Part shown: positions 14,812 through 30,612 of the stretch, one piece after another | Position numbering within the stretch: position 1 is the first letter of the stretch | How the letters are laid out: every line of letters begins with the position of its first letter | NCBI RefSeq assembly: GCF_018760365.1 | Contig: NZ_JAHIAB010000012.1 | Coordinates: 1 to 64,000, forward strand | Length of the DNA stretch: 64,000 bases | Source: Pseudooceanicola endophyticus | Lineage (GTDB): Bacteria; Pseudomonadota; Alphaproteobacteria; Rhodobacterales; Rhodobacteraceae | Direction: 5' to 3' | Made by a program: the position numbers and the translations under genes | Notes under the pieces: model-generated | What the model saw: only the letters and a program-made list of their open reading frames with translations | Databases searched by the model: none | Told to the model about the DNA's origin: nothing

Positions 14812-14866
14812 TTGACAAGCGCGGTTCAAAAAAACAAAATGCAATTCCATAAAAACAGAAATGGAA
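14812..14866 (+). promoter_or_regulatory. Promoter and possible autoregulatory site of the iclR gene
   Basis: A consensus -35 box TTGACA (14812-14817) is followed after 17 bases by CAAAAT (14835-14840). A second inverted repeat, TTCCAT (14845-14850) and ATGGAA (14861-14866), spans the predicted transcription start and the first start codon. It could serve autoregulation, but its arms are short. Confidence 0.55.
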
Positions 14867-15673: not shown

Positions 15674-15674
15674 C

Positions 15675-16898
15675 CTAGCCGCGCACCAGGGGCGGCGCCG
15701 GCGCCCAGAGCCGCAGCACGCCGCCACGCACCACCGCGCGCACCGGGGCGTTGGTGCGCACCGCATGGGCCGGGCTCTCGGCACCCAGCAGAACGAAATC
15801 CGCCGCCGCCCCCACGGCAAGCATCGGCACCGATGCCCGCAGGATCTGTGCCGGGGCCGTGGTGATCATGCCGAAGGCCGCCGCCATCTCTCCCTCCGAC
15901 GCAAGCTGATCGAGGCTGGCATAAAGGTTCGCCATCCGCAGCAGCGCCGCATCGCCATGCGGGGTGAAGGGGTTCTGCACGTTGTTGGTGGCCAGCGCGA
16001 CGGTGGTGCCGAAGCCCGCGATCTGATGCGCCGGCGCCAGCCCCCGGGGCCGCAGCGGATCGCGCCGGTCGCCATTGAGGAAACTGTCGGTCGCCGGCAG
16101 CACCACCAGCGCGATTCCGGCCCCGGCCATCTGGCGGGCCAGCGCTTCCCGCCGCTCGGGCGAAAAGGCCGCGAATTTCGTCGCATGGCCCACCGCCACC
16201 CGCCCCCGCCAGCCGCGCGCAAGGGTCTGGGCAATGATCTCGGGCAGGATCGAGCCTTCGGGATCAAGGTCGAAATCGGCGTGGAAATCCACGTCCACGT
16301 CGTGCTGCTCGGCCAGATCGAAGATCAGCGACACATGCGCCACCGGATCCGCATCGGTGTAGGGGCAGCCGCCCACCAGATCGCCGCCCTCGGCCAGCGC
16401 CCGGTCGATCAGGGCGTAGGTCTCCATCTCCTGGGTCAGGCCTTCCTGGGCAAAGATGCACAGCTGCAGGTCGATCAGGTCCGCCCAGTCCGCCTTCAGC
16501 CGCTTCAGCGCCGCAAAGCTGCGCAGGCCGGCCCGGGGATCGACCTCCACGAAAGAGCGCATCCTCTGGGTGCCGGCGCGCACCGCCATCTCGATCACCC
16601 GCGAGGCGCGGGCATGGACATCCTCTTCGGTGAAGCTGCGCTTGGCGGCGGCGGTCAGGCGGACGGCCTCGGGCAGCGTGCCCTCGCAGATCGGGCATTG
16701 CTCCAGCAGCAGCGCCTTGTCGAGATGCACATGCGCGTCGGTGAACCCCTGCGACAGCAGCGCGCCCTGCGCGTCGAAACGCTCCGGCCCCTCCGCCAGC
16801 CCCTGCCCCATGGCGGCGATCACGCCGTCCTCGATCCGGATCGACAGGACCTCTCCGTCCGCAAGCCGCACGTTGTCGAGGATGAAGGGAGCGTGCAT
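15675..16898 (-). CDS. Amidohydrolase-superfamily protein, cytosine-deaminase-like, with altered metal site
   Basis: The 407-residue protein has the amidohydrolase barrel with HxH at H56/H58 (GFTDAHVHLDKAL), H206 in DFHADF and H238 in VGHATKF. Where cytosine deaminase relatives carry the metal-binding Asp in a (S/G)DNxxDP motif, this protein has ATNNVQNPF, so the Asp is replaced by N305; the HxxE Glu is also absent (HADF). A subfamily with a different reaction is more likely than a dead enzyme, because the rest of the fold is intact. It is the last gene of the deoR-btpA-FGGY kinase operon, starting 10 bases after the kinase stop region, with a GAGGAGGC ribosome site. The substrate is probably a nitrogen heterocycle or amide released within this locus. 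Confidence 0.82.
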   Translation of the reverse strand: MHAPFILDNVRLADGEVLSIRIEDGVIAAMGQGLAEGPERFDAQGALLSQGFTDAHVHLDKALLLEQCPICEGTLPEAVRLTAAAKRSFTEEDVHARASRVIEMAVRAGTQRMRSFVEVDPRAGLRSFAALKRLKADWADLIDLQLCIFAQEGLTQEMETYALIDRALAEGGDLVGGCPYTDADPVAHVSLIFDLAEQHDVDVDFHADFDLDPEGSILPEIIAQTLARGWRGRVAVGHATKFAAFSPERREALARQMAGAGIALVVLPATDSFLNGDRRDPLRPRGLAPAHQIAGFGTTVALATNNVQNPFTPHGDAALLRMANLYASLDQLASEGEMAAAFGMITTAPAQILRASVPMLAVGAAADFVLLGAESPAHAVRTNAPVRAVVRGGVLRLWAPAPPLVRG

Positions 16899-16908
16899 CG
16901 GGGCCTCC

Positions 16909-18387
16909 TCAGCCGTGAAAGCCCTTCAGACGGGCGTAAAGATCATGGAACCGGGCATAGGCGCGGTCGTAGCGGGCGGCAAGGGAGGGATCGGGGGCGA
17001 TCACCGCGCCGGTCTTCACAAAGCCCGTCACCGCGTCCCAATCCGCCTGCCCCACCGCCACCGCCGCCGTCAGCGCCACCCCAAGGGCCGAACCGGGATG
17101 CCCCTGAAGGCGCTGCACCGGGGCCTGCAACACATCCGCGACGATCTGCATCCAGACATCCGAGGCCGCACCGCCGTCCGAGACGACGAAACGCGTCGCC
17201 GGGTGGCCCATGTCGCGCAAAACCTCGACATGGTGGCGCAGGGCGAAGGCGTAGCTTTCCAGCACCGCGCGCCAGAGGTGCCCAAGGTCATGGGACAGGG
17301 TCAGCCCCTCGATCACGCCCCGGGCGGCAGGGTCGTGGATCGGGGTCTTCTCGCCCAGAAAATAGGGCAGCACCAGCAGGTCATCGGCGCCCGCGGGCCG
17401 CTTTGCCGCCCGGGCATCCAGCCAGCCATGCAGGTTGCCGCCCGGCGCCTCGATCCCCTTGCAGAAGGTGGCGACGAACCAGTTCAGCACCGATCCGCCC
17501 GTCGACATGCAGCCATTGGGCATCATCAGCCCCGGCACCAGATGGTCATCGAGGTAAAGCCGCGCATCGGGGGCCACGCGCTCGGTCGCGGTCAGGATGT
17601 CGACGGCGCCGCCGAATTTCAGCAGCACATCCCCCGCCGACCGGATCCCGGCGCCATAGGCCGAAGCGATCATGTCCGCCGCCCCGCCGATCACCGGCGT
17701 GCCCTCCGCCAGACCGGTCTGAAGGGCAGCCTCGGCGGTGACATGGCCGATCACCTCGGTCGAGCGGGACCGGGGCGGCAGGGCGGCAAAGGGCACGCCG
17801 GTCATCGCGGCCAATTCCGGATCAACCGTGCCGGAGGCGACATCGACCACACCGGCCTCCAGCGCCCAGTTCTGTTCGATCCGCTTCGCGCCGGTCAGCC
17901 GCCAGTTGACGTAATCGTAACTGCCGAAGACGGTCGCGATGCGGGCGTGGTTTTCCGGCTCGTGCCTTGCCAGCCAGCGCAGTTTCGCCCCCACCAGCTG
18001 CTGGTTCACCCCGTTGCCGGCGCGGTGCAGAAAGGCGGCCTCGTCGATCTGCTTGCGCATCTCGGCCACCTCGGCGCCGCAGCGACCGTCGCTTTGCTGG
18101 ATCGAACGGCGGATCAGCCGGTCGTCTTCATCCAGCAGCACCACCGCCGGCAGCATCCCCGTAACGCCCACCGCCGCGATCCGGCCCCCGCCCGCCTGCG
18201 CCAGCAGATCGGGCACCAGCGCGCAGACATTGGCCCACCACTGTTCGGGGTCCTCCTCGGCCCAGCCGGGGTGGTCGGAATGCAGCGTGACAGGGCGCGA
18301 GGCCAGCGCCTTCACGCGGCCCGGCAGCTCCACCAACATCCCGATGGTCGAGGTCGTGCCGATATCGAGGCCCAGGAACATTGCCAT
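16909..18387 (-). CDS. FGGY-family carbohydrate kinase (xylulokinase-like)
   Basis: The 492-residue protein has both FGGY lobes. The N-terminal phosphate loop is LGLDIGTTSTIGMLVE, QQSDGR follows near residue 100, and the C-terminal lobe has GDVLLKFGGAVDIL, PYFLGEKTPIHDP and VSDGGAASDVWMQIVADVLQAPV. It phosphorylates a sugar or polyol with ATP. The family covers xylulose, ribulose, glycerol, erythritol and others, and I cannot choose among them. It starts 3 bases after the BtpA/SgcQ gene stop. The ABC sugar importer at 24810-28987 probably supplies its substrate. The length is normal for xylulokinase-type members. Confidence 0.92.
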   Translation of the reverse strand: MAMFLGLDIGTTSTIGMLVELPGRVKALASRPVTLHSDHPGWAEEDPEQWWANVCALVPDLLAQAGGGRIAAVGVTGMLPAVVLLDEDDRLIRRSIQQSDGRCGAEVAEMRKQIDEAAFLHRAGNGVNQQLVGAKLRWLARHEPENHARIATVFGSYDYVNWRLTGAKRIEQNWALEAGVVDVASGTVDPELAAMTGVPFAALPPRSRSTEVIGHVTAEAALQTGLAEGTPVIGGAADMIASAYGAGIRSAGDVLLKFGGAVDILTATERVAPDARLYLDDHLVPGLMMPNGCMSTGGSVLNWFVATFCKGIEAPGGNLHGWLDARAAKRPAGADDLLVLPYFLGEKTPIHDPAARGVIEGLTLSHDLGHLWRAVLESYAFALRHHVEVLRDMGHPATRFVVSDGGAASDVWMQIVADVLQAPVQRLQGHPGSALGVALTAAVAVGQADWDAVTGFVKTGAVIAPDPSLAARYDRAYARFHDLYARLKGFHG

Positions 18388-18390
18388 GGC

Positions 18391-19191
18391 TCAGCGCAGG
18401 GTCGCAACCTTGTCCATGAAGCGCTTTACCCTGTCGCCATCGACCTTGTTCCAGGTGTCGCCATCGACCTTGAAATGGGTGCCGATCACGCAGCCCGAGG
18501 CCACCGCCAGCACATCGGCCACGTTGTCGATATTGACGCCGGTATTGGCAAAGACCGGCACGTCGCTCACCGCTTCGCAGACCTTGCGCAGGTCCGAGGC
18601 ATCCGCCGGCTGCCCGGTGATCGGCCCCGAGACCAGGATCGCATCCGCGACCGAGGAGAAGACCGCCGATTTCGCCCGCAGCTCGATCGGGCGCTGGTCG
18701 AGGGAATGGGCGAATTCCGCGTTGATGTTGAACAGCATCTTCATGTCGGGCCGCTTCAGCGTGCTGCGCAGGCGGGCGGCGGCGGCGCAGTCGGGCTGCC
18801 AGACGCCCATGTCGGAGGCGAAGACACCGGTAAAGATCTCGCGCACGAAGGAAGCGCCCGTCACCGCCCCGATCGCCACCGTCGCCTGCGGATCCCACAG
18901 GTAGTTGACCCCGAAGGGCACCTTCAGCAGCGGCTTGATCGCCTGCACCACCACGGTCATCGCGGCGATGCTTTCGGGCGTGCCCTTGAAGACATAGGGG
19001 CGGTCGTTTTCATTGCCGAACATGATCGCATCGACGCCGCCCGCCTGCAGCTGTTCGACATCCGCCGCCACGTCCTCGATCAGCCCGTCCATGCCCCGGT
19101 CCGCATCATACAGCGGCGATCCCGGCAGCGCGCCGATATGTGCCATGGAAATCACGGCCTTCGAGGTCTCGCCGAAAAAGTCAAAGATCAT
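18391..19191 (-). CDS. BtpA/SgcQ-family TIM-barrel protein
   Basis: The 266-residue protein matches the BtpA/SgcQ family: it has MAHIGALPGSPLYD at residues 16-29, DVEQLQAGGVDAIMFGNENDRPY, VPFGVNYLWDPQATVAIGAVTGASFVREIF and the C-terminal VFANTGVNIDNVADVLAVASGCVIGTHFKVDG, which looks like a phosphate-binding loop. BtpA is known as a photosystem I biogenesis factor in cyanobacteria; SgcQ homologues in heterotrophs sit in sugar gene clusters and have no established reaction. Here it lies between a DeoR regulator and an FGGY kinase. It may therefore act on the phosphorylated sugar, for example as a lyase, isomerase or glycosidase (inference). It has an AGGAGC ribosome site. Confidence 0.88.
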   Translation of the reverse strand: MIFDFFGETSKAVISMAHIGALPGSPLYDADRGMDGLIEDVAADVEQLQAGGVDAIMFGNENDRPYVFKGTPESIAAMTVVVQAIKPLLKVPFGVNYLWDPQATVAIGAVTGASFVREIFTGVFASDMGVWQPDCAAAARLRSTLKRPDMKMLFNINAEFAHSLDQRPIELRAKSAVFSSVADAILVSGPITGQPADASDLRKVCEAVSDVPVFANTGVNIDNVADVLAVASGCVIGTHFKVDGDTWNKVDGDRVKRFMDKVATLR

Positions 19192-19224
19192 CTGGGGCTC
19201 CTGGAAAGGGCTTGAGGGAATCCG

Positions 19225-20046
19225 TCAGGGGGCGATGCGGATCTCGACCCCGGCGCGCTCCAGCGCCTGGGCCAGATCGGCGGGCGGTGCCGCATCGGTG
19301 ATCAGCAGCTGCACGTCGGACAGATCGCAGACCTTGGTCAGCGACATGCGGCGGAACTTGGAACTGTCGCAGAGCACCACCCGGGTGGCCGAGCGCGCGA
19401 CATAGACGCGCTTCAGCTCGCTGTCCTCCATCGAGTAATCGAACAGCCCCTCGCCCGTCAGCCCCGAGATCCCCAGCAGCGCCACGTCGAAATGCAGCTT
19501 CTCGAAATATTCGACGGCCTGGGGGCCGGTGATCGACATCTCGTCGGGGCGCACGCGACCGCCCGGCACGTAGACCTCGGCCTGGGTGGGCGAAAGCGCC
19601 TCGGCGACGCGCAGCGAATTGGTGAAGATGCGCGAGCGGCTGGTGACCTCCATCATCTGCGCCACCGCATGGGTGGTGGTGCCCACGTCCATCGCCACGG
19701 TGCGGTAGCCCGCGACCAGCCGCGCGGCTTCCCGCGCGATGGCGGTCTTGGCGGCGCTCATGTGCACGGCGCGGGCACCAAAGCGCGGCTCCACATCGTC
19801 GATCACCGACAGCGGCCCCTCGCTCAGCAGCACGGCGCCGCCATGGACGCGCTCCAGCAGGCCCTCGCGCTCCAGCTCGCTCAGGTCGCGGCGCACGGTC
19901 ATGTCCGAGACGTGGAAATCACGGGCGATCTCGGTCACGGTCACCGAGCCGCCGGCGCGCAGACGCTCCAGGATCGCCGCCAGCCGGACCTGCGCCGGGA
20001 TCTTCGCCCGTTCCACCGGCTTATGTTCGCTTTCCGACCTGCTCAT
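19225..20046 (-). CDS. DeoR/GlpR-family transcriptional regulator
   Basis: The protein has 273 residues from ATG 20046, which is preceded by AAAGGAACA. A start 13 codons earlier is possible, but it covers the likely -10 region. Residues 10-65 are the DeoR HTH (VTVTEIARDFHVSDMTVRRDLSELEREGLLERVHGGAVL). The rest is the DeoR sensor domain with AMDVGTTTHAVAQMM, TNSLRVAEAL, the phosphosugar-binding DVALLGISGLTGEGLFDYSMEDSELKR and VVLCDSSKF. DeoR-type proteins are usually repressors released by a phosphorylated sugar, which here could be the product of the FGGY kinase in the same operon. The TGTTCG-type half-sites at its own start and at three other promoters of this locus are candidate targets. 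Confidence 0.92.
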   Translation of the reverse strand: MSRSESEHKPVERAKIPAQVRLAAILERLRAGGSVTVTEIARDFHVSDMTVRRDLSELEREGLLERVHGGAVLLSEGPLSVIDDVEPRFGARAVHMSAAKTAIAREAARLVAGYRTVAMDVGTTTHAVAQMMEVTSRSRIFTNSLRVAEALSPTQAEVYVPGGRVRPDEMSITGPQAVEYFEKLHFDVALLGISGLTGEGLFDYSMEDSELKRVYVARSATRVVLCDSSKFRRMSLTKVCDLSDVQLLITDAAPPADLAQALERAGVEIRIAP

Positions 20047-20158
20047 GTTCGCAATGTTCCTTTTATACCCGCATAACCGTGGCACCGCCGAAATTCAAAC
20101 AATTTCATTGCGATTGATGTTAGTTTTTGTTTGTTTGTGTTCAGCATAGGAGATTGCC
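20047..20158. promoter_or_regulatory. Divergent promoter/operator region of the deoR operon and SDR gene
   Basis: The 112-base region is rich in TTTG repeats on the plus strand (about 20123-20141). It holds a TGTTCG half-site at 20046-20051, TGTTCC at 20055-20060 and TGTTCA at 20138-20143. For the minus strand a TATAAAA element lies at 20067-20061. GlpR/DeoR-family half-sites of the TGTTCG type are known in enterobacteria, so these are plausible operators. Confidence 0.5.
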
Positions 20159-20959
20159 ATGTCCCCCCACAGCCTGCCCGCCTCAATTTTCCCCGATTTG
20201 TCAGGTCAGCGGGCGCTTGTCACCGGGGCGGCCAGCGGAATCGGGCGGGCGATCGCCACGGCCCTGGCGGCGCAGGGGGTGCGGGTGGCGCTGGCGGACC
20301 TGAACCCGGAGGCCGCGCAGGCGGTGGCAGACAGCCTGCCCGGAGACGCCTTCGCCCTGCCCGTCGACGTGCGTCAGCGCGCTTCGGTCGAGGCGGCGGT
20401 TAAAGCGGCACTCGACACCATGGGGGGCCTCGACATCCTGATCGCCAATGCGGGCGTGTCGTCGATGGCCCGCGCGCTGGAGATCACCGATGCGGAATGG
20501 GACTTCAACATGGACGTGAACACCCGGGGCGTCTTCCTGGCGAACCAGATCGCCGGGCAGATCTTCGCGGCGCAGGGGCATGGGACCATCGTCAACACCG
20601 CCTCGCTGGCGGCCAAGGTGGGGGCGCCGCTCTTGGCGCATTACTCGGCCTCGAAATTCGCGGTGGTGGGCTGGACGCAGGCACTCGCACGGGAAATGGC
20701 GCCGCTGAGCATCAGGGTGAACGCGGTCTGCCCGGGCTTCGTGCGCACCTCCATGCAGGAGCGCGAGATCGGCTGGGAGGCCACCTTGCGCGGCATGACC
20801 CCCGAAGCGGTCGAGGCCGATTACATCGCCCAGACGCCCCTTGGCCGGATCGAGACGCCCGAGGACGTGGCGGGCGTGGTGGTCTTCCTGTGCTCCGAAA
20901 GCGCGCGCTTCATGACCGGCCAGGCGATCAACGTCACCGGCGGCGTCTACATGACCTGA
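20159..20959 (+). CDS. Short-chain dehydrogenase/reductase (SDR)
   Basis: The 266-residue protein is a classical SDR with VTGAASGIGRA (21-31), IANAGV (95-100), Ser in NTASLAA and the Y162xxxK166 pair (YSASK). An aspartate at the end of strand 2 (VALADLNPE) favours NAD over NADP. It has an AGGAGA ribosome site. It is the first plus-strand gene after the deoR promoter region and overlaps by 13 bases the 3' end of the convergent amidohydrolase gene. It probably oxidises a sugar or polyol hydroxyl of the compound handled by this locus. Confidence 0.92.
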   Translation: MSPHSLPASIFPDLSGQRALVTGAASGIGRAIATALAAQGVRVALADLNPEAAQAVADSLPGDAFALPVDVRQRASVEAAVKAALDTMGGLDILIANAGVSSMARALEITDAEWDFNMDVNTRGVFLANQIAGQIFAAQGHGTIVNTASLAAKVGAPLLAHYSASKFAVVGWTQALAREMAPLSIRVNAVCPGFVRTSMQEREIGWEATLRGMTPEAVEADYIAQTPLGRIETPEDVAGVVVFLCSESARFMTGQAINVTGGVYMT

Positions 20960-22116
20960 GCGCCCGCCACCACGCGCCCCCCCTTGATCACCAGACGCTC
21001 CGGGGGGCGGGCGGCGACGGCCTCGGCCCGCGATCCGGCGGGGACCAGCATCAGATCGGCCAGCGCCCCCGGGGTCAGGTCCGCACGCGGACGCCCCAGC
21101 ACGGCGCCGGGCACGGTGCTGACCAGATCCAGCGCCAGCTCCAGATCCGCATCGGCGCGGAAATCCTGCCGGTCGCAGAGGATCGCCGCGCGTTCCAGCA
21201 GATCGCCCGATCCGAAGGGCGACCAGGCGTCGCGGATGTTGTCATTGGCGGCAAAGACGGTGACACCGGCAGCGCGCAGGGCCTTCACCGGCGGCATCGG
21301 CACCGGCCCCGGCGCCGAGGTCATGATGCTGACCCCCGCCTCTGCCAACTCCGCCGCGATCCGCGCGAAAGCATCGGGGCTGAGCGCGCCCAGACAGAAG
21401 GCATGGCTGACATTGACCCGGCCCGACAGCCCGGCGCGCGCGGTGCGCCGCGCGATCTGCGACAGCTCGTGCGCGCCCAGCTCTCCGCCGTCGTGCAGAT
21501 GGATGTCGAGGCCCAGCCCGTGCCGTTCGGCAAGGCCGAAGATGGTGTCCAGATGGCCGGTGATATCGCCATCGATCCCCGCCGGATCGAGGCCCCCGAT
21601 CAGGTCCACCCCCGCCTTCGCCGCCTCTTCCAGCAGCGCCGCCGTGCCCGGTTCGCGCAGGATGCCCGATTGCGGGAAGGCGACGGTCTGGATCTGCATC
21701 ACACCGGCCAGTTCCGCCTTCAGGGCCAGGATCTGGTGCAGGCTGTCCAGCCCGACCTCGGGGTCGATATCGACATGGCTGCGCAGCGCCACTGTGCCAA
21801 GAGCGGAAAGCCGCGCGATCAGGGCGCGGGCGCGGTCCGCCACCGGCAGGGCGACGCTGCGGCGCAGATGCCGTTCGGCGGCGATGCGCGCGGCGATGGT
21901 CGTGCCGGGGATATGGGGAATGAAAGGCAGCCCGATCAGGGTCTTGTCCAGATGCACATGGCCATCGACCAGCGCGGGCAGCGCCAGACGGCCCTGCCCC
22001 TCCAGCAGCGCCTCGCCCTCGGCCGCGTCCAGCCCCGGGCCGGTTTCCACGATCAGGCCGTCGCGCAGCCGCAGGTCGACGCGGCGACCATCGATGCGCA
22101 CATCCCGGATCAGCAT
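20947..22116 (-). CDS. Amidohydrolase-superfamily protein, cytosine-deaminase-like (intact metal site)
   Basis: The 389-residue protein is a second cytosine-deaminase-type amidohydrolase. It has HxH in PALVDGHVHLDKTL, an LDIHLHDGGELGAHEL segment, HAFCLGALSP and an ANDNIRDAWSPFG motif that keeps the metal-binding Asp, unlike the gene at 15675-16898. Such enzymes deaminate or hydrolyse ring amides of heterocycles such as cytosine, isopropylammelide or creatinine relatives. Its start overlaps the stop of the questin-oxidase-like gene upstream by 7 bases. It ends inside the 3' end of the convergent SDR gene. Confidence 0.88.
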   Translation of the reverse strand: MLIRDVRIDGRRVDLRLRDGLIVETGPGLDAAEGEALLEGQGRLALPALVDGHVHLDKTLIGLPFIPHIPGTTIAARIAAERHLRRSVALPVADRARALIARLSALGTVALRSHVDIDPEVGLDSLHQILALKAELAGVMQIQTVAFPQSGILREPGTAALLEEAAKAGVDLIGGLDPAGIDGDITGHLDTIFGLAERHGLGLDIHLHDGGELGAHELSQIARRTARAGLSGRVNVSHAFCLGALSPDAFARIAAELAEAGVSIMTSAPGPVPMPPVKALRAAGVTVFAANDNIRDAWSPFGSGDLLERAAILCDRQDFRADADLELALDLVSTVPGAVLGRPRADLTPGALADLMLVPAGSRAEAVAARPPERLVIKGGRVVAGAQVM

Positions 22117-23120: not shown

Positions 23121-24547
23121 CAGGCGCTCCTTTCGCGGGGCGGGCGGGGATCGAAATGCGGGGCCTCGAAAGCCTCGAACGCGGACAGGAAAGCATCCGC
23201 CCGCGCCGCGAACAAGCCCGTCACCAGCGCCCGCACCAGACGCGGCACCCCGTAGCGGAACCCGGTGATGCCGTTGCTGATCGGGCCGAGGCTGGGCAGC
23301 GCCGCCGCATTGTAAAGATGTACCCGCGTGATCCAGTCGGCGCCGGGCGCCTGCGGCAGCAGCTCGAACCCCGGGCCAAGGTAGGGGTGGGCGGCGATGA
23401 AGGGATCGGCGGCGGCCTCGGGCAGGCGCGTGCCCCAGGTGGTGAACAGCCCCTGAAGGCTGTGCAGCTCGGGCCGCAGGGCGGGATCGTAGCGATAGCC
23501 GGTGCCCAGTAGCAGGTGATCGGCATGGAAGGTGCCATGGGCGTTTGCGATGCGGATCTGCGCCCCCTCCATGGCGAAACGGCAGGTCCCGCTGCCGGGC
23601 AGGTAGCGAAAGGCCGGATCGCCGATGGCACGGTCGTACTGGTCCTGGGTGGGCGGGATCTTGCAGCGGAAATACTGCTGCATGAAGCGGAAGCGGACCT
23701 CGGGCGGCAGATCGGGAAAGCTGGTCATGAAGCCGGGGAATGCCATCCAGGCCAGCGCCTCGGTGCGCGGCAGATGGGCCTCGCGCCCGAATTGGACCAC
23801 CTGCGCGGCGCCCTGCTCCAGCGCCGTCACCGACCAGTCGAAGGCCGAGGTCTGCCCGCCCAGCACCGCGACCCGCAGCCCCTTCAGGCGCCCGTCCTCG
23901 GCCTCTTCCGCGGAATGGGTGTAGCGCGCGCGCGGCAGGGCACGGGCGACCTCGGGCGGGACATGCGGCCCGCCGCCGCCATCCAGCCCGGTCGCCAGCA
24001 CCAGCCGCGCGGCGCCAAGCTGCGTCACGCCTTCGGGCCCCTCAAGCGTCAGCCGCAGCCCGCCCTGCGCCGGGGCAATGGCGCAAAGCCGGGTGTCGTT
24101 CTGCACCGCGATCCCGCTCACCCGGCGGAACCACAGCAGGTAGCGCATCCAGTCCTCCTTGCTGGGGCGCTCCAGCGCGGCCCAGGCGGGCGCACCGTAG
24201 CGCGCCTCGTACCAGGCGCGCATGGTCAGGCTGGGGATCCCGAGGTCGAGCGAGGACAGATGCTTGGGCGAGCGCAGGGTCTTCATCCGCGCCGAGGTGA
24301 TCCAGGGCCCCTCCCGTCCGGCGGGCCGGGCATCGATCACCCGCACATCGGCAACGCCCGCGCGGCGCAGCGCAAAGGCCAGCCCCAGCCCCGACATGCC
24401 CGCCCCGCAGATCACCACCGGCACCTGCCCCGAGGCCCCGTCGATCCAGGGATCGGGCAGCGCCTGGACCTGCTCCAGCTCGACCGGGATGCGGGCCTCC
24501 AGAGCGCTCAGCGCCGGACAATCTGCCTCTTTCCCCTGCTGCGACAT
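23120..24547 (-). CDS. FAD/NAD(P)-binding monooxygenase-like flavoprotein
   Basis: The 475-residue protein has two dinucleotide folds. The FAD loop is CGAGMSGLG at residues 47-55, and the second is VAVLGGQTSA (226-235), a variant of the usual GxGxSA/G of flavin monooxygenases. A third family block, LLLGTGYRYDPAL, occurs near residue 350. It resembles class B flavin monooxygenases and SidA/ornithine N-oxygenase relatives, but the exact FMO fingerprint (FxGxxxHxxxY/F) is not seen, so an N-hydroxylase, Baeyer-Villiger or other oxygenase remains open. It heads a minus-strand set with the questin-oxidase-like protein and amidohydrolase, divergent from the ABC importer genes. Confidence 0.82.
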   Translation of the reverse strand: MSQQGKEADCPALSALEARIPVELEQVQALPDPWIDGASGQVPVVICGAGMSGLGLAFALRRAGVADVRVIDARPAGREGPWITSARMKTLRSPKHLSSLDLGIPSLTMRAWYEARYGAPAWAALERPSKEDWMRYLLWFRRVSGIAVQNDTRLCAIAPAQGGLRLTLEGPEGVTQLGAARLVLATGLDGGGGPHVPPEVARALPRARYTHSAEEAEDGRLKGLRVAVLGGQTSAFDWSVTALEQGAAQVVQFGREAHLPRTEALAWMAFPGFMTSFPDLPPEVRFRFMQQYFRCKIPPTQDQYDRAIGDPAFRYLPGSGTCRFAMEGAQIRIANAHGTFHADHLLLGTGYRYDPALRPELHSLQGLFTTWGTRLPEAAADPFIAAHPYLGPGFELLPQAPGADWITRVHLYNAAALPSLGPISNGITGFRYGVPRLVRALVTGLFAARADAFLSAFEAFEAPHFDPRPPRERSA

Positions 24548-24809
24548 GGTGCAAAAGTCCTGAAATCCTGCATCCCGCCGGAACGTCCCGGCCCCGGATG
24601 ACGGTTGCGTGATGGAAATTTATGCGGTCGCCGCTTGTTTCGGCTCCCCCGCGGAAATGTTCAGTTATGTTTTGTGTCGAAAATTTTTGGCCTTTGTCAA
24701 GTTCGCATATGTGTGCTTTTGTTCGTATTGGGGCAGGATGTCCCAAAAACAAACAAGAAGAAACGCGATCCCGCCCGCCTGCGGGCGCCACAGCAACAGG
24801 GAAGTTCAG
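24548..24809. promoter_or_regulatory. Divergent regulatory region between flavin monooxygenase and ABC importer genes
   Basis: The region is 262 bases with an AT-rich core (24655-24735). It holds TGTTCA at 24658-24663, TTTTGTG at 24670-24676 and TTTTGTTCG at 24717-24725, all resembling elements in the deoR and isochorismatase promoter regions. No hexamer pair is good enough to name a promoter. A frame open through this region joins the binding protein but carries no family sequence. Confidence 0.5.
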
Positions 24810-26090
24810 ATGAAAAGATTGTCCTCTCTCCGGTGCCTCGCCCTGGCGTCGGCCTCGGTCGCGGCCCTTGCGGCACCGGCGCTCGCCGATCAGTCGCTCA
24901 AGGGGGTGACGCTGACGCTGGCCTCCCAGAACGACCAGTTCGCCGCCGTCCTGGCCGAAATGGCCCCCGAATTCGAAGCCGCCACCGGCGCCAAGCTGAA
25001 GGTCGACATCCTCGACTACGGTTCGCTGCTGACCAAGACCACCGCCGATTTCGTCGGCCAGACCGGCAGCTACGACCTGGTGACCATGGATATCGTCTGG
25101 GCCGGGCAATATGCCGAGAACGGCTATACCGTCGATCTGACCGACTGGATCGCCCGCGACAAGGACGAGATCGACACCGACGACATCTATCCCGTGCTGA
25201 TGCAGGCGCTTGGGCAATACGACGGCAAGCAGGTGGCCTTTCCCTTCGCCGGCTATGCCAACGTGCTGGCCTATCGCAAGGATCTGCTTGAGAAGGCCGG
25301 CCTGGGCGTGCCGACCACGCCCGAGGAATTCACCGCCGCCGCGCTGAAGATGACCGACCCCGCGGCCGGCGTCTACGGCTTCGTCGCCAACGGCCAGAAG
25401 GGCGCCGCCGGGGCGCAGGACTGGATGCAGTACAACGCCCAGATGGGCGGCGCGATCATGGGGCCGGACGGCAAGCCGGACCTGAACTCCGACGCCAATA
25501 TCCACAGCCTTCAGGTCTACAAGGAACTGTTCGACAAGGCCGCGCCTCCGGGGGCGGCGAATTACGACTGGGGCGGGCGCGAGGAAAGCTTCCGCCAGGG
25601 GATCGCGGCGATGATGCAGACCTGGTCGGTGGGCGCACCCGGCTATTACGATCCCGCCTCCTCCAAGGTGGTCGATACTGTGGGCATCGCGCTGGCGCCC
25701 TCCGAGAACACCGAGGAACCCTCCTACGGGGTCGGCGGCTGGGGCATCGCCATCAACGCCGGCATCTCCGAAAAGCAGAAGGAGGCCGCCTGGGAATACA
25801 TCAAGTGGATGACCTCGAAACCCGTCCACAAGGAGATGATCCTGAAGGGCTCGGGCTCGTTCCTGAGGAAATCCGAGATGGCCGACCCCGAGCTGAAGGC
25901 CAAGTTCCCCTTCCTGCCGATCCTCGAGAAGACCTTTGAGAACGGCGATGGCAGCTACCGCCCGCGCATCCCCGAATACCCCGAGATCCAGGACCTGCTG
26001 GGCACCGCGGTGAACGCCGTTCTGGTGGGCGACGAGGATCCGAAGGCGGCGCTGGACGCTGCGCAGAAAGAGGCGCTGGACCTCTTCTGA
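24810..26090 (+). CDS. ABC sugar importer, extracellular solute-binding protein (family 1)
   Basis: The protein has 426 residues from ATG 24810 with an AGGGAA ribosome site. Residues 1-27 are a Sec signal peptide (ending AAPALA-DQSLKG). The mature part is a type 1 sugar-binding protein: ASQNDQFAAVLAEMAPEFEAATG, a YDLVTMDIVWAGQYAENGYTVDLTDWI segment, VAFPFAGYANVLAYRKDLLEKAG and GGWGIAINAGISEKQKEAAWEYIKWM. It binds a sugar, polyol or glycoside in the periplasm and works with the two permeases that follow and the ATPase at 27890-28987. A GC hairpin lies between it and the first permease gene. Confidence 0.94.
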   Translation: MKRLSSLRCLALASASVAALAAPALADQSLKGVTLTLASQNDQFAAVLAEMAPEFEAATGAKLKVDILDYGSLLTKTTADFVGQTGSYDLVTMDIVWAGQYAENGYTVDLTDWIARDKDEIDTDDIYPVLMQALGQYDGKQVAFPFAGYANVLAYRKDLLEKAGLGVPTTPEEFTAAALKMTDPAAGVYGFVANGQKGAAGAQDWMQYNAQMGGAIMGPDGKPDLNSDANIHSLQVYKELFDKAAPPGAANYDWGGREESFRQGIAAMMQTWSVGAPGYYDPASSKVVDTVGIALAPSENTEEPSYGVGGWGIAINAGISEKQKEAAWEYIKWMTSKPVHKEMILKGSGSFLRKSEMADPELKAKFPFLPILEKTFENGDGSYRPRIPEYPEIQDLLGTAVNAVLVGDEDPKAALDAAQKEALDLF

Positions 26091-26099
26091 GGTCCCGCC

Positions 26100-26119
26100 C
26101 GGGGGCCCTGCGGCCCCCG
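26100..26119 (+). other. Intercistronic GC hairpin between binding protein and permease genes
   Basis: CGGGGGCC (26100-26107) pairs with GGCCCCCG (26112-26119) over a CTGC loop. No T run follows. Hairpins at this position often stabilise the upstream mRNA so that binding protein is made in excess over permease; that role is inferred. Confidence 0.6.
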
Positions 26120-26139
26120 CCCCGCCTGAAGGAGTCCCC

Positions 26140-27075
26140 ATGAGCGACCTGTCCCTCCCGGTGCCCGCGCGCGCGCTGAGCCCCTTGGGTTTTTACCAGC
26201 GGCGGCGCTGGTTCCTGGTCGCCATGGCGGCCCCGGCGCTGGCCTATATCCTTGTGGTGGCGGTCTGGCCGATCCTTCAGGGCATGTATTTCAGCCTCTT
26301 CGACTACAACCTGCTGAAGCCCCACCGCACGAAATTCGTCGGGCTTCAGAACTACCTTGAGGTCTTCGACACCCCCGCCAACCGCGCCGCCTTCGTCAAC
26401 ACCGTGATCTTCACCGCCGCCGCCGTCACGATCGAGCTGGTCCTGGGCTTTGGCCTGGCGCTGGCGCTTTGGCGCGACAGCCGCTTCAACCGGATCGCCC
26501 TGGCGCTGGTGCTGGTGCCGGTGACGATTACGCCGCTGGTGGTCGGGCTGATCTGGCGGGCGCTGCTGCTGCCCGATTTCGGGCTGCTGGGCTACTGGCT
26601 GGCGCACTGGGGCCTGAGCGACCCGCGCGGCCTGCTGGCCGATCCGCACAGCGCGCTGGCCACGCTGATCGCCATCGATGTCTGGGAATGGACCCCGATG
26701 ATGGCGCTGATCCTGCTGGCGGGGCTGAAATCCCTGCCCTCCGACATCCTTGAGGCCTCGCGCACCGATGGCGCCACGGGCTGGCAGCGGGTGCGCCTGA
26801 TCGTGCTGCCGCTGATGCTGCCGGCAGTGCTGCTGGCGCTGATGATCCGCTCGGTCGATGCCTTCCGGGTCTTTGACAGCGTCTATGTCACCACCGGCGG
26901 CGGCCCCGGCAACAGCACCAACACGCTGATGCTTCAGGCGGTGAAGGAGGGGCTTCAGTTCTTCGACATCGGCGCCGCCTCGACGCTGGGCAACGTGACG
27001 CTGCTGTGCATCGCGCTGATCGCGGGCGGGCTGATCGCCGTCATCCGCCGCGCCGACCGGAGAGCCAACGGATGA
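26140..27075 (+). CDS. ABC sugar importer permease 1 (MalF/UgpA type)
   Basis: The 311-residue membrane protein has six predicted helices, the first near residues 25-45. The ABC permease coupling loop (EAA motif) reads EASRTDGATGWQRVRLIVLPLM (about 207-228). It forms the heterodimeric channel with the next gene product, whose start overlaps its stop by 4 bases (ATGA). An AAGGAG ribosome site precedes the start. Confidence 0.94.
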   Translation: MSDLSLPVPARALSPLGFYQRRRWFLVAMAAPALAYILVVAVWPILQGMYFSLFDYNLLKPHRTKFVGLQNYLEVFDTPANRAAFVNTVIFTAAAVTIELVLGFGLALALWRDSRFNRIALALVLVPVTITPLVVGLIWRALLLPDFGLLGYWLAHWGLSDPRGLLADPHSALATLIAIDVWEWTPMMALILLAGLKSLPSDILEASRTDGATGWQRVRLIVLPLMLPAVLLALMIRSVDAFRVFDSVYVTTGGGPGNSTNTLMLQAVKEGLQFFDIGAASTLGNVTLLCIALIAGGLIAVIRRADRRANG

Positions 27076-27893
27076 TCGCCTCGGACCGCCGCAGCATCCG
27101 GATGGAGCGCCTCGTGGTCAGCCTGGCCATCGTGCTGGCGCTGGTGCCCTTCCTGTGGCTGGCGGCCACCGCCTACAAGCCCGGGCGCGACATCTTCGCC
27201 ATCCCGCCCACCCTGCTCTTTTCCCCGACGTTGGAGAATTTCCGCAAGGTTCTGACGCTCTTCGACGTGCCGGCGCTGCTGATCAACAGCCTGAAGATCG
27301 CCGGGACCTCGGCGCTGCTGTCGCTGCTGGTGGGGGTGCCGGCGGGCTATGCGCTGGCACGCGCGCGCAGCCGCTGGGCGATGGGGCTGGCCTATTTCTT
27401 CATGGCGATCCGCATGGTGCCCCCGGCGGCGACGCTGATCCCCTTCTACCTGATGATGCGCGACATCGGCTTGCTGGGCCAGTGGATCAGCGTCGCGCTG
27501 ATCAACACCACGCTGAACGCCGCCTTCGTCACCTGGATGATGTTCTCCTACTTCCGCAGCCTCCCGAAAGAGCTGGAAGAGGCCGCGATGACCGATGGCT
27601 GCACCCAGTTCGGCGCCTTCTTCAAGATCGCCTTGCCGGCGGTGCGCCCCGGCATCATCGCCGCGGTGATGTTCTGCATCCTGTTCTCGTGGAACGATTT
27701 CCTGTTCGCCATGTTCCTGACCCGGCTGGAGGACAAGCCGATTTCGGTGGCGCTTCTGTCAGCCTACGGCACCAAGGACATCACCTGGGGCACGCTGGGG
27801 GCGCTGGCGCATTTCTCGACCCTGCCGATCGTCGTCATCGTGCTGGGGCTGAACCGCTACTTCGTGCAGGGGCTGACCCGGGGCATCCACTAG
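27072..27893 (+). CDS. ABC sugar importer permease 2 (MalG/UgpE type)
   Basis: The 273-residue membrane protein starts at ATG 27072, overlapping the previous stop; an in-frame earlier start inside permease 1 is rejected. The coupling loop is EEAAMTDGCTQFGAFFKIALPAVRPG. It ends with the usual NRYFVQGLTRGIH. Its stop codon overlaps, on the opposite strand, the stop codon of the cognate ATPase gene, a convergent arrangement. Confidence 0.94.
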   Translation: MIASDRRSIRMERLVVSLAIVLALVPFLWLAATAYKPGRDIFAIPPTLLFSPTLENFRKVLTLFDVPALLINSLKIAGTSALLSLLVGVPAGYALARARSRWAMGLAYFFMAIRMVPPAATLIPFYLMMRDIGLLGQWISVALINTTLNAAFVTWMMFSYFRSLPKELEEAAMTDGCTQFGAFFKIALPAVRPGIIAAVMFCILFSWNDFLFAMFLTRLEDKPISVALLSAYGTKDITWGTLGALAHFSTLPIVVIVLGLNRYFVQGLTRGIH

Positions 27894-28987
27894 ATCCGCT
27901 TGCCGGTCGCGGGGTCGAAGAAATGCAGCCGCGCGGCATCGGGGGTCAGCCGGATCGGCGTGCCCGGACGCAGCGGCGCCGTCGCCGGAAGCGAGACCCT
28001 GAGCCGCAGCGCCGACAGGTCGGCGCCGTCCTGATCGGCCTGTCCGCGCACCAGCGCTCCCTCCGGCAGGGCGACATGGGCCAGAAGGCTTGCCCCCAGA
28101 TCCTCGACGAAGGCGACCTCTCCGTGCAGCGGCCCCTCCGCATCCTGCACCAGCGCCTCCGGACGGATGCCCGCGATCACCGGGCCCGGGCGCGGCGGCC
28201 GGGGCAGCGCGATCTCGGCCTGCCCGGTGCGCAGCCGGTCGCCTTCGATGGTGCCGGACAGAAAGCTCATCGGCGGCGTGCCGATGAAGCTGGCCACGAA
28301 CAGATCCGCCGGGGCATCGTAAAGCCGGCGCGGCGTGTCCAGCTGCAACAGCTCTCCGGCATTCATCACCGCCACCCGGTCGCCCATGGTCATCGCCTCG
28401 ACCTGATCATGGGTCACGTAGACCGTCGTCACCCCCGAGGCCCGCTGAAGCCGTGCCACATCCGCCCGCATCTGCGCCCGAAGACGCGCATCGAGGTTCG
28501 ACAGCGGCTCGTCCATCAGGAAGGCCTGCGGCGTGCGCACCAGCGCCCGGCCCATCGCCACCCGCTGCCGCTGCCCCCCCGACAGCTGCCCGGGCTTGCG
28601 CGCCAGATGCGCGTCCAGTTCCAGCAGCCGGGCGGTTTCCTGCACCCGCGCGGCGATCTCGGCCTTGGCCATGCCGCGCACCTTCAGCCCGAAGCCGATG
28701 TTCTGCGCCACCGTCAGATGCGGATAAAGCGCGTAGCTCTGGAACACCATCGCGATATCGCGGTCCCTGGGCGCCAGATCGTTGGAGCGGACGCCCCCGA
28801 TCATCAGGTCCCCGCCCGAGATTTCCTCCAGCCCTGCAATCATCCTGAGCGCCGTCGACTTGCCGCAGCCCGAGGGGCCGACCAGCACCAGGAACTCGCC
28901 CTCGCGGATCGTCATGTCGAGGCCGCGAATGGCGGTATAGCCGTCGGGATAGCTTTTCGTGACCCCGCGAAACTCGATCTCGGACAT
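27890..28987 (-). CDS. ABC sugar importer ATP-binding protein (MalK/UgpC type)
   Basis: The 365-residue ATPase has Walker A GPSGCGKST (38-46), the Q loop in MVFQSYALYPHLTV, the signature LSGGQRQRV, Walker B FLMDEPLSNLDARLR and the switch His in VYVTHDQVEAMTMGDRVAVM. A C-terminal TOBE-type domain (IAGIRPEAL) is the regulatory region of MalK relatives. The start is ATG 28987; the frame is open further upstream through the divergent region but has no family sequence there. It is transcribed against its permease genes and shares 4 bases of stop codons with them, from a promoter region that carries TGTTCG elements. Confidence 0.94.
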   Translation of the reverse strand: MSEIEFRGVTKSYPDGYTAIRGLDMTIREGEFLVLVGPSGCGKSTALRMIAGLEEISGGDLMIGGVRSNDLAPRDRDIAMVFQSYALYPHLTVAQNIGFGLKVRGMAKAEIAARVQETARLLELDAHLARKPGQLSGGQRQRVAMGRALVRTPQAFLMDEPLSNLDARLRAQMRADVARLQRASGVTTVYVTHDQVEAMTMGDRVAVMNAGELLQLDTPRRLYDAPADLFVASFIGTPPMSFLSGTIEGDRLRTGQAEIALPRPPRPGPVIAGIRPEALVQDAEGPLHGEVAFVEDLGASLLAHVALPEGALVRGQADQDGADLSALRLRVSLPATAPLRPGTPIRLTPDAARLHFFDPATGKRI

Positions 28988-29185
28988 GGGCGTGCTCCGC
29001 TGTGTTCGATTTTGTGATTTGCGTGCGGAGCCCGGTAGAGCCCCGGGAAATATGCACTCTTCAGGCAGGCTAAGCCGGTTCAGCAGGCACTGCAAGCAAA
29101 GCTGTGTTCGAAAATGTTGTATAATGTTGTTTTCGGGAAAACCGGGCAGTAACCTCGCAGCATCCTGACGGAAAGGCGTGCGCCC
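28988..29185. promoter_or_regulatory. Divergent regulatory region between ABC ATPase and isochorismatase-fold genes
   Basis: A 10-base element CTGTGTTCGA occurs twice, at 29000-29009 next to the ATPase gene and at 29102-29111 next to the hydrolase gene. A perfect -10 box TATAAT (29120-29125) on the plus strand lies between two copies of AATGTTGT (29113-29120 and 29123-29130, 10 bases apart). No good -35 box is present. A protein bound to the repeats would cover the -10 box, as expected for a DeoR-type repressor. Confidence 0.62.
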
Positions 29186-29902
29186 ATGACCCCTGCCGAT
29201 CCCTCCGGCACCGGCGGCCCGCAGGCCGGGCCGGTGCCCGGCCTCTATCCCTGGCCCTTCGACGGTGACCTGCGCCCCGACAACACCGCCCTTCTGGTGA
29301 TCGGAATGCAGCGCGATTACCTCTGCGCCGGGGGCTGGCTGGACTGCGCGGGCCATGACATCGCGCCGCTGGCCGCCCTGAGCGCGCCGCTGGGCAGCAC
29401 GCTCTCGGCGCTGCGCCGCGCCGGGCTGGCCGTGCTGCACCTGCGCGAGGGGCACCGCCCCGACCTGAACGACCTGCCCGAGACCAAGCGCTGGCGCTCG
29501 GCCCGGATGGGCGCCGAGATCGGCCACCCCGGTCCGCTGGGGCGCCATCTGGTGCGTGGCGCGCCCGGAACTGATCTGGTGCTGCCCGCCCTGCCCGGAG
29601 AGGACATCATCGAGGTCACCGGGCGCAGCGGCTTCTACGGCACGGACCTTGATGCCCTGCTGCGGCTGCGCGGCCTGCGCAATCTGGTGCTGGCCGGCGC
29701 GCTGACCGACGGCATGGTCCAGGCCACCCTGCGCGAGGCCAATGACCGCGGCTACGAATGCCTCGTGCTGGAGGATCTCTGCGCCAGCACAAGCCCCGCC
29801 CAGCACGCCGAACAGATCCGCATGTTCGCGCTGGCCGGCGGGCTGTGGGGATCGGTCGGACGCAGCGCCGATCTGCTGGCCGCGCTGGAGGACCCCCGGT
29901 GA
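29186..29902 (+). CDS. Isochorismatase-fold protein lacking the catalytic triad (pseudoenzyme)
   Basis: The 238-residue protein aligns end to end with the next gene product and shares long blocks such as REGHRPDLNDL, KRWRSAR and GAEIGHPGPLGR. That pattern resembles biuret/ureidoacrylate amidohydrolases. Yet all three catalytic residues of the family are replaced: the nucleophile-activating Asp is G40 (VIGMQRDY), the Lys is V144 (EVTGRSGF) and the nucleophilic Cys is M177 (LTDGMVQAT). The frame is intact and has no stops, so it is maintained as a protein. I infer a structural or regulatory partner for the active copy, possibly a mixed oligomer. Its TGA overlaps the GTG start of the active copy. 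Confidence 0.88.
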   Translation: MTPADPSGTGGPQAGPVPGLYPWPFDGDLRPDNTALLVIGMQRDYLCAGGWLDCAGHDIAPLAALSAPLGSTLSALRRAGLAVLHLREGHRPDLNDLPETKRWRSARMGAEIGHPGPLGRHLVRGAPGTDLVLPALPGEDIIEVTGRSGFYGTDLDALLRLRGLRNLVLAGALTDGMVQATLREANDRGYECLVLEDLCASTSPAQHAEQIRMFALAGGLWGSVGRSADLLAALEDPR

Positions 29903-30612
29903 CCGTCCCCGCCCGCCCCTACGACTGGCCCCTGTCCGGCACGCCCGGCCCCGCCGATACCGCGCTGATCCTGATCGACATGCAGATCGACTTCTGCGGC
30001 GAGGGCGGCTTTGCCCATCAGGCGGGATCGGATTTCGCCCTGCTTCAGGCCACCATCGCCCCGACCCGCCGGGTGCTTCGGGCCTTCCGCGCGGCCGGCC
30101 ACTTCATCCTGCACACCCGCGAGGGGCACCGCCCCGATCTGAGCGACCTGAACGACAACAAGCGCTGGCGCTCGGCGCGCGCGGGGGCCGAGATCGGCAG
30201 CCCCGGCCCCTGCGGGCGGATGCTGACGCGGGGCGAACCCGGCTGGCAGATCGTGCCAGAACTTGTGCCACTGCCCACAGAGCCGGTGATCGACAAGCCC
30301 GGCAAGGGTGCCTTCCACGCCACCGACCTGGATCACCTGCTGCGCCGGCGGGGCATCCGCAACCTGGTCTTTGCCGGCGTGACCTCGGATTGCTGCGTGC
30401 ACACCACCATGAGCGAGGCCTGCGATCGCGGCTACGACTGCCTGCTGCTGGAGGATTGCACGGCCTCGGTCCTGACCGCCCATCACGCCACGATCCTCAA
30501 CCTGACCCTGCGCGATCACGGGCTGTTCGGCGCCGTCACAACCTCCACGGCGGTGCTGGAGGCCCTGCCGGCACCGACCAATGCCCCCTCTGGGGCACCG
30601 GATCCCTTGTAA
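29899..30612 (+). CDS. Isochorismatase-family cysteine hydrolase (biuret/ureidoacrylate amidohydrolase-like), GTG start
   Basis: The 237-residue protein has the complete triad: D27 (LILIDMQIDF), K133 (VIDKPGKGAF) and C166 (GVTSDCCVHTT). The REGHRPDLSDL, GAEIGSPGPCGR and RGEPGWQIVPEL blocks resemble biuret hydrolase and RutB-like enzymes, which hydrolyse carbamoyl or ureido bonds to free ammonia and CO2. I start it at GTG 29899, because GTGA overlaps the upstream stop and the protein then aligns with its inactive neighbour; the next upstream ATG lies in frame within the neighbour gene and adds non-homologous residues. Together with two amidohydrolases and two oxygenase-type proteins it suggests breakdown of a nitrogen-rich ring compound. 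Confidence 0.9.
   Translation: MTVPARPYDWPLSGTPGPADTALILIDMQIDFCGEGGFAHQAGSDFALLQATIAPTRRVLRAFRAAGHFILHTREGHRPDLSDLNDNKRWRSARAGAEIGSPGPCGRMLTRGEPGWQIVPELVPLPTEPVIDKPGKGAFHATDLDHLLRRRGIRNLVFAGVTSDCCVHTTMSEACDRGYDCLLLEDCTASVLTAHHATILNLTLRDHGLFGAVTTSTAVLEALPAPTNAPSGAPDPL

Follow-up and report, generated by a model that had tools for sequence, protein, structure and literature searches.

The locus described here occupies positions 15675-30612 of a 64-kb window, the 64,000-nucleotide stretch of Pseudooceanicola endophyticus DNA (contig NZ_JAHIAB010000012.1, positions 1 to 64,000) that was analysed. Pfam and NCBIfam scans of the window's open reading frames (ORFs) give 14 genes there, lying on both strands, one more than the thirteen of the initial annotation; every family that it had named was found at the place it gave. 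The minus strand carries three groups, amh1-FGGY-BtpA-DeoR, amh2-quox-fmo and a MalK-type ATPase, and the plus strand a short-chain dehydrogenase/reductase (SDR), a solute-binding protein (SBP) with two permeases, and the pair iso1-iso2. By family these are two Amidohydro_3 proteins, an FGGY kinase, a BtpA protein, a DeoR regulator, an SDR, a Questin_oxidase protein (PF14027), an FAD oxidoreductase, an SBP_bac_1 protein, two BPD_transp_1 permeases, an ATP-binding cassette (ABC) ATPase and two Isochorismatase-family proteins. We read the whole as a catabolic system of two modules that acts on a polyol joined to a nitrogen heterocycle of flavin, lumazine or purine type, at a probability of about 0.5. 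The features, in order, are:

15675-16898, minus strand: amh1, cytosine-deaminase-like amidohydrolase with Asn replacing the expected catalytic Asp (Amidohydro_3; best NCBIfam model NF004636, 221.5 bits, below its cut-off of 408)
16909-18387, minus strand: FGGY carbohydrate kinase, XylB-like (FGGY_N/FGGY_C; TIGR01312, 297 bits, below its cut-off of 380; best PDB chain 3ifr)
18391-19191, minus strand: BtpA/SgcQ family protein, phospho-sugar type TIM barrel (TIGR00259, 247 bits, above its cut-off of 153; fold search with an AlphaFold2 (AF2) model)
19225-20046, minus strand: DeoR-family regulator, start inferred (DeoRC and HTH_DeoR)
20125-20133, plus strand: candidate operator TTTTGTTTG in the deoR-sdr divergent promoter (one of two window matches)
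20159-20959, plus strand: SDR oxidoreductase (Pfam; best PDB chain 3ak4, quinuclidinone reductase)
20947-22116, minus strand: amh2, AtzC-like amidohydrolase with intact HxH/H/H/D motifs (NF004636, 498.9 bits, above its cut-off of 408; best PDB entry 6nbo)
22110-23120, minus strand: quox, questin-oxidase-family protein, predicted non-heme-iron ring-opening dioxygenase (PF14027)
23120-24547, minus strand: fmo, FAD-dependent oxidoreductase/monooxygenase, FMO-like (Pyr_redox_2 and related Pfam families)
24717-24725, plus strand: candidate operator TTTTGTTCG in the fmo-sbp divergent promoter (the other window match)
24810-26090, plus strand: sbp, solute-binding protein of the ribitol-binding 5IAI group (SBP_bac_1; PDB 5iai, 615 bits)
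26140-27075, plus strand: ABC permease 1 (BPD_transp_1)
27072-27893, plus strand: ABC permease 2, start inferred (BPD_transp_1)
27890-28987, minus strand: MalK-type ABC ATPase, start inferred (ABC_tran, TOBE_2, OB_MalK)
29186-29902, plus strand: iso1, BiuH-like cysteine-hydrolase paralogue with its D-K-C triad replaced by G, V and M (Isochorismatase domain)
29899-30612, plus strand: iso2, BiuH-like cysteine hydrolase, triad intact, start inferred (best PDB entry 6xjm, biuret hydrolase, E 3.5e-87)

Central to this reading is the company that quox keeps in other genomes. An anchor search gave 592 quox-like proteins at E 0.001 among the scored candidates (a 21-row quox alignment was used), and the best 80 of 90 named loci were fetched with flanks of 10 kb around quox. 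Thirteen of these come from Microbulbifer, with about 30% quox identity, and served as a distant control; the other 67 are referred to here as relatives, and 52 of them are full-length loci of at least 20.5 kb each, the identity thresholds for the counts being our own choice. Within these 52 the binding protein is present 49 times, fmo and the ATPase 42 times each and amh2 41 times, and the genes of the sugar half nearly as often (FGGY 38, DeoR 36, SDR 36, BtpA 34); 36 loci have the binding protein, at least three of the four sugar-half genes and fmo or amh2. Partner genes recur among the 67 relatives in many orders and orientations, and 0 of the 13 Microbulbifer loci has any of them. A recurrent core of sbp, quox and amh2 with no sugar genes nearby is found in 6 of the 52.

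The least biased test used 199 whole genomes of the order to which the Rhizobium genome with locus L009 belongs, with limits that were again ours (E <= 1e-130 for the binding protein, <= 1e-40 for quox and <= 1e-105 for BtpA). The binding protein was found in 13 genomes, quox in 13 and BtpA in 27; the first two sets are the identical 13 genomes, all of which lie inside the BtpA set (hypergeometric p 2.4e-13 for the binding-protein genomes, with relatedness ignored). The binding protein and quox are less than 20 kb apart in 11 of the 13, the binding protein and BtpA in only 6, so that linkage alone does not explain the coupling. Among the seven genomes with no BtpA near the binding protein, the matches in G314 and G490 lie close to contig ends and are possibly linked across a gap; in G297 and G391, BtpA and the binding protein are on one contig, far apart. 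In G362 the binding protein and quox are megabases apart on one contig, and in G490 they are on different contigs, quox being cut by the contig end.

A set of quox genomes picked by hand, in which BtpA was searched for genome-wide, gave a similar picture: all 10 with this SBP type have BtpA at 66-80% identity, and none of the three without it (L023, L056 and L059) has a match, the search that covered L023 having had no positive control of its own. In seven genomes with quox and the binding protein and no sugar genes nearby (Martelella, Lichenifustis, Labrys, Acidisoma), BtpA is elsewhere in the genome; inspection of five of these found FGGY, BtpA, DeoR and SDR together at another place, and in four of the five these sugar genes have their own importer. 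In sum, the locus behaves like a single unit, found together in many soil bacteria, and the initial view of it as one system rather than a chance neighbourhood is borne out by the 36 loci and by the identical 13-genome sets, all with BtpA.

Two details of the quox loci may be added. The quox neighbourhood of L023 (Salipiger pentaromativorans, 3407-16409) has an NMT1/THI5-type binding protein beside a quox-fmo-amh2-amh1 row, together with a PNPOx/PhzG-like protein and an aldehyde dehydrogenase. A single in-frame TGA is read through in each of the quox matches of G296, G297 and G425, of which two come from Labrys.

The two halves can also be found apart. Among 292 genomes sampled from the window's own order, Rhodobacterales, quox occurs only in the window's genome. 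Four others have BtpA at 75-78% identity, with FGGY, DeoR and a HAD phosphatase within 19 kb in all four, SDR in one, and an importer that differs from the window's. In Salipiger profundus, as far as the stretches shown reach, the sugar half is accompanied by a different importer, AtzF and amidases, with no quox. The genomes of L023, L056 and L059 contain the oxygenase/hydrolase half and gave no BtpA match. The separation into halves across homologous clusters, which the initial annotation had taken as the mark of two systems, is therefore seen in part: the halves do occur apart, but they are coupled in the 36 loci counted above. They are separable modules, coupled in all tested genomes with the ribitol-type binding protein, and we read them as joined when the substrate carries both moieties.

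Other settings of the sugar module came to light in the same comparisons. The Salipiger profundus plasmid combines it, AtzF included, with two BiuH-like hydrolases, both with intact triads, and with AtzG/AtzE/HpxZ (L084 14294-15669 and L086), a different set of partners for the BtpA module. A second BtpA group, 52-61% identical, occurs in 28 of the 292 genomes; a gene of about 360 amino acids and a distant FGGY kinase (33-34%) follow BtpA in the three of four fetched loci (L122-L125) where BtpA was called. It is another undescribed locus. In yet other genomes of the order BtpA lies beside a sulfatase and an amidase (L120 10104-11645 and L121), a context that suggests that several conjugate types feed the BtpA/FGGY pair.

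Turning to the individual proteins, quox scores 80.2 bits against PF14027 (cut-off 27) and has the fold of BTG13 and of the hydroquinone dioxygenase PaD, at 16-18% identity. Residues H24, H117, H231 and H303 are invariant in 11 divergent members, including three Microbulbifer loci, and correspond to positions that we take to be metal-binding in BTG13; quox is thus predicted to be a non-heme-iron ring-opening dioxygenase. Its neighbour fmo has no relative in the PDB at E 0.001.

Amh2 is closest in the PDB to N-isopropylammelide isopropylaminohydrolase (6nbo), and its HxH, H, H and D motifs, presumably with metal-binding and catalytic roles, are present in 46 of 46 aligned copies. The other amidohydrolase, amh1, keeps the four motif His in 27 of 27 aligned copies and has Asn at the position of amh2's Asp in the same 27. 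From CodA and AtzC we assume the Asp of the last amidohydrolase motif to be catalytic; by its aligned residues, amh1 appears to fail the motif expected of an active cytosine-deaminase-like amidohydrolase, which was unexpected.

The two cysteine hydrolases were compared with BiuH, in which Asp36, Lys142 and Cys175 are catalytic and biuret is bound by Lys145 and by Gln215 of the neighbouring subunit (PMC5806882). Iso2 keeps the D-K-C triad in 28 of 28 copies (the window and 27 loci); iso1 lacks the Cys in 23 of 23, the Lys in 23 of 23 and the Asp in 18 of 23, and the apparent loss of catalytic Cys and Lys was likewise unexpected. The equivalent of Gln215 in the iso2 of the 27 relatives is F in 13, Y in 9, H in 3, Q in 1 and D in 1, and it is D in the window, which makes biuret or triuret an improbable substrate of iso2. 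At position 218 there is Arg in 26 of the 27 relatives and Leu in the window. Iso1 has Gly at 215 and Asp at 145 in 22 relatives, which, taken with the residue losses, suggests that it may be a non-catalytic partner at a shared subunit interface. One L033 row clusters with the second of the cysteine hydrolases of R. leguminosarum 3841, a protein that retains Q at 215, and a single clade of dead iso1 that includes the window copy gave an approximately unbiased (AU) test p of 0.352, on a quick tree of 40 of 56 rows in which the window copy is long-branched. The biuret-hydrolase-like enzyme of the initial annotation is right as to descent (6xjm, E 3.5e-87), but iso1 is without the triad and iso2 without the biuret-binding Gln.

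Some relatives carry further genes of this kind: AtzF is found in 23 of the 67 loci, where it can follow tandem cysteine hydrolases, and a GGT-family protein, presumably HpxW-like, in 6 of the 67, a lower bound given the 10-kb flanks. With the AtzC/cytosine-deaminase type of the amidohydrolases, and the 8-oxoguanine deaminase discussed below, these partners agree with the nitrogen-heterocycle moiety proposed at the outset. Beside the R. leguminosarum cluster (L082 786-6965) lie genes for a BMP-type importer, an amidohydrolase, a GST and a Rieske oxygenase, and the BiuH-AtzD stretch of 3841 (L083) has a similar set at its left end.

For the other moiety the importer is the most informative component. 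The best PDB chain for the window's binding protein is 5iai, a 'Sugar ABC transporter' (presumably from Agrobacterium radiobacter K84), at 615 bits, and the next chain has only 127. The binding proteins of 57 clusters score 490-670 bits against the window's (618 for R. rhizogenes L031), and since 615 falls inside this range 5iai belongs to the cluster group. It has been used as a crystal structure with bound ribitol (PMC8468352), and the importer is predicted from this relationship to take a ribitol-type polyol group. The sugar moiety of the initial annotation thereby finds support, but the ligand points to a polyol and not to the sugar of a glycoside.

Within the sugar module, the FGGY kinase is nearest to XylB models and fails the cut-off of the D-xylulokinase equivalog (TIGR01312, 297 bits vs. 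380); its best chain, 3IFR, is filed under XylB, with D-ribulokinase a separate branch (PMC3245297). BtpA meets the family cut-off of TIGR00259. The fold of its AF2 model ties with ribulose-phosphate epimerases, HisA, HisF and prenylglyceryl-phosphate synthases, and no specificity was deduced from it, since so many phospho-sugar barrels tie.

A short element, TTTTGTTYG, has two matches in the 64-kb window, at 20125 in the deoR-sdr gap and at 24717 in the fmo-sbp gap (0.14 expected; none of 100 shuffled sequences has as many). In the relatives it stands upstream of sbp in 43 of 57 cases, fmo in 28 of 49, sdr in 11 of 43 and btpA in 10 of 40, and is infrequent upstream of quox (5 of 64), deoR (2 of 41) and the other kept ORFs (1 of 465). 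Its choice followed a look at the k-mers that precede sbp and sdr in relatives, so that 43 of 57 and 11 of 43 are partly circular; the fairer controls are the other kept ORFs and the window, which was outside the k-mer set, although its promoters had been seen beforehand. The element also occurs outside cluster promoters in L082, L085, L119, L121, L124 and L125. An earlier operator candidate, TGTGTTCGA, with 9 matches at up to one mismatch against 7.2 expected, was not significant and was replaced by TTTTGTTYG; the three promoters have no repeats beyond families of two copies, 10-21 bases long, and short inverted pairs. The element is likely, by its placing, a common DeoR operator in the window and is given as a candidate. 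One DeoR protein over the whole locus, as first proposed, is consistent with its presence at both divergent promoters, but in relatives the presence of deoR does not predict it.

A polyol-binding importer and enzymes of a pyrimidine-type ring, taken together, point to N-ribityl heterocycles, among which the common natural class is that of flavins and lumazines. The polyol is most likely a D-ribityl or similar pentityl group, and the system is probably DeoR-controlled. Flavins and lumazines, riboflavin-like, make the best single candidate class, though a tentative one, held at clearly less than even odds. The catabolism of a sugar-linked nitrogen heterocycle, as the locus was first read, is supported as to its two moieties, with a polyol in place of the glycoside sugar.

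Starting from the observed gene content, conservation, co-occurrence, folds, residue states and shared promoter element, we infer the substrate, every reaction and the order of steps as follows. The MalK-type importer, with its 5IAI-group binding protein, would take up the conjugate by its polyol end; the FAD enzyme would oxidise the ring or reduce it to a hydroquinone-like state, and the four-His non-heme-iron enzyme quox would open it with O2. AtzC-like amh2 would then cut a ring-type C-N bond and iso2 hydrolyse the acyl-urea fragment, possibly with its dead paralogue iso1 as partner subunit, to which some relatives would add an allophanate hydrolase, a GGT-family hydrolase or an 8-oxoguanine deaminase. 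In the other module the SDR would oxidise the N-pentityl polyol chain, the XylB-like FGGY kinase phosphorylate the product, and the BtpA phospho-sugar barrel free or isomerise a pentose phosphate, perhaps through a reverse Amadori step of the HisA/TrpF kind, with the output feeding the pentose phosphate pathway. A bolder version, which we regard as doubtful, is a new flavin/lumazine route, widespread in alphaproteobacteria, in which quox would open a flavin hydroquinone with the ribityl chain attached, the acyl-urea would be cut by a heteromeric cysteine hydrolase to which a dead subunit is indispensable, and oxidation, phosphorylation and a BtpA reverse-Amadori step would recover the N-linked pentityl group.

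Several observations weigh against this reading of a polyol-heterocycle conjugate. Many of the relative loci come from closely related Rhizobium and are not independent events, and the halves occur apart, the unlinked sugar modules having their own importers. Ribitol in 5IAI may be only a screening ligand, and a simple route from ribitol to ribulose is made less likely by the kinase, which is XylB-like and lies outside the ribulokinase branch of RbtK. The best-scoring of 15 AtzF matches in the window's genome is 29% identical, so that no close AtzF is found there, and a local allophanate hydrolase was dropped from the pathway on this account. TTTTGTTYG is present in only 3 of 9 deoR-sdr gaps examined in relatives (Salipiger profundus and two Acidisoma) and absent from the other 6, and it does not follow the presence of deoR in fetched stretches (32 of 41 with deoR, 11 of 16 without). 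For flavins in particular, the Pfam scans found no aromatic ring-cleaving set and none of the enzyme families of the Lum route, described below, among the 14 genes, and the 8-oxoguanine deaminase homologues in 12 of the 67 loci, one of them a Devosia, favour a guanine-like ring.

These last homologues speak for the most probable alternative, a guanine or 8-oxopurine-type ring, from a nucleoside that is oxidised or modified and has an open or atypical sugar, degraded by successive amidohydrolase deaminations, ring oxidation, and acyl-urea and oxamate-type hydrolysis. The R. leguminosarum cluster has a protein scoring 614 bits against the 8-oxoguanine deaminase model NF006055 (cut-off 532), the window contributes two more cytosine-deaminase-type amidohydrolases, and the GGT-family protein in at least 6 of the 67 loci would fit as well. 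The deaminase, however, is in neither the window locus nor 55 of the 67 fetched stretches, the Pfam scans show no nucleosidase or phosphorylase among the 14 genes, and the 5IAI representative of the binding-protein group holds ribitol; a purine ring is possible but unlikely.

Quite unlikely, in our estimate, is a plain operon for ribitol, arabitol or xylitol with unrelated nitrogen-scavenging passengers. The SDR, XylB-like kinase, DeoR and CUT1 importer would suffice for polyol use, and sugar-half genes do exist elsewhere with no quox, but mere passengers would hardly account for SBP and quox sets that coincide in 13 of 199 genomes, including the unlinked cases G362 and G490, or for the sbp-quox-amh2 core of the six loci with no sugar genes nearby. 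Two unrelated systems lying side by side by chance are very improbable: the four BtpA-FGGY-DeoR loci and Salipiger profundus, all without quox, the quox halves of L023, L056 and L059 with no BtpA match in their genomes, and the single quox genome among the 292 are what such a view would predict, but both halves recur together in 36 of 52 loci and in many gene orders, BtpA accompanies SBP and quox in 13 of 13 genomes although in seven it is not within 20 kb, and a promoter element is common to both divergent promoters. Least probable is nitrogen release from biuret or an s-triazine (cyanuric acid) with an AtzC-like start, since, for all that amh2 is AtzC-like, iso2 BiuH-like, AtzF present in relatives and BiuH beside atzD in R. 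johnstonii 3841, only one of 27 relatives retains Gln215 in iso2 and the window has Asp there, the Pfam scans show no AtzD cyanuric acid hydrolase among the 14 genes, 36.7 kb around the BiuH of 3841 has no questin-oxidase, BtpA or FGGY gene, and the polyol importer is left unexplained.

The genes on either side of the locus appear to belong elsewhere. To the left (12510-15673) are a TRAP-type DctP binding protein, a GH88 unsaturated glucuronyl hydrolase and an IclR regulator, which seem to form a system of their own for unsaturated uronides; none of the 67 relative loci has iclR near quox, which marks the left boundary. Immediately to the right (31398-35334) is a second ABC importer, with a TOBE_2 ATPase, two permeases and an SBP_bac_8 protein, which looks like another system, and further on (55730-62265) peptide-type ABC permeases and an ATPase, a class-III aminotransferase and an amidase stand in one row. 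No Rfam family is above its threshold in the 64-kb window, and a riboswitch link to the locus was dropped for this reason.

The locus joins three poorly understood families, the bacterial questin-oxidase-like dioxygenases, the BtpA/SgcQ barrels and the dead isochorismatase-like paralogues, in one testable pathway with a named ligand lead, ribitol, and the conserved pairs of intact and disabled hydrolases would offer a clean case for heteromeric enzymes with pseudoenzyme subunits. Were the substrate a flavin or lumazine, the locus would define, at the level of genes, one more route by which soil and root bacteria turn over vitamin B2; lumichrome is described as a signal to plants (PMC12746152). 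The new route, if correct, would provide candidate genes for a pathway of the Pseudomonas RF type, in which, according to PMC12746152, the C-ring is degraded first, urea and oxalamide are formed and no enzyme had been purified, and it would give BtpA/SgcQ a function. Devosia riboflavina was considered as the source of an orphan riboflavin hydrolase and set aside, a riboflavin monooxygenase of that species being already described; its name does not appear among the 120 listed of 587 proteins, the majority of them unnamed.

Catabolic clusters of this general kind are already known. This combination of genes was not found in the open-access papers searched, judged from titles, term counts and the starts of abstracts, with subscription papers outside the scope, in agreement with the initial remark that no described pathway is known to have this set. 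Among the nearest described systems are the Rca system of Microbacterium and Devosia riboflavina and the Lum operon of Nocardioides simplex, which, like the locus as proposed, dismantle ribityl heterocycles aerobically, using several hydrolases to open the pyrimidine ring and O2 for ring opening (PMC12746152). The Lum route employs a P450, a thiamin-dependent decarboxylase, a xanthine-oxidase-like enzyme and Rieske and catechol dioxygenases (PMC12746152), whereas the present locus has FMO, questin-oxidase-family, AtzC-like and BiuH-like enzymes and a polyol-phosphate module. The TrtA-BiuH-AtzF operon for triuret and biuret of Herbaspirillum and R. leguminosarum 3841 (PMC7948467) resembles the relatives' loci in its tandem cysteine hydrolases followed by AtzF, but here iso1 is without the catalytic Cys and Lys, the iso2 Gln is changed and the window's genome has no close AtzF.

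Alphaproteobacterial ribitol and polyol operons combine an ABC importer, an SDR, an FGGY kinase and a regulator. The locus has all four, and departs from those operons in its XylB-like FGGY, the added BtpA and the coupled heterocycle module. BTG13 questin oxidase and PaD, finally, are ring-opening non-heme-iron dioxygenases, from which quox differs in its low identity to them, in being bacterial and in its linkage to a polyol importer.

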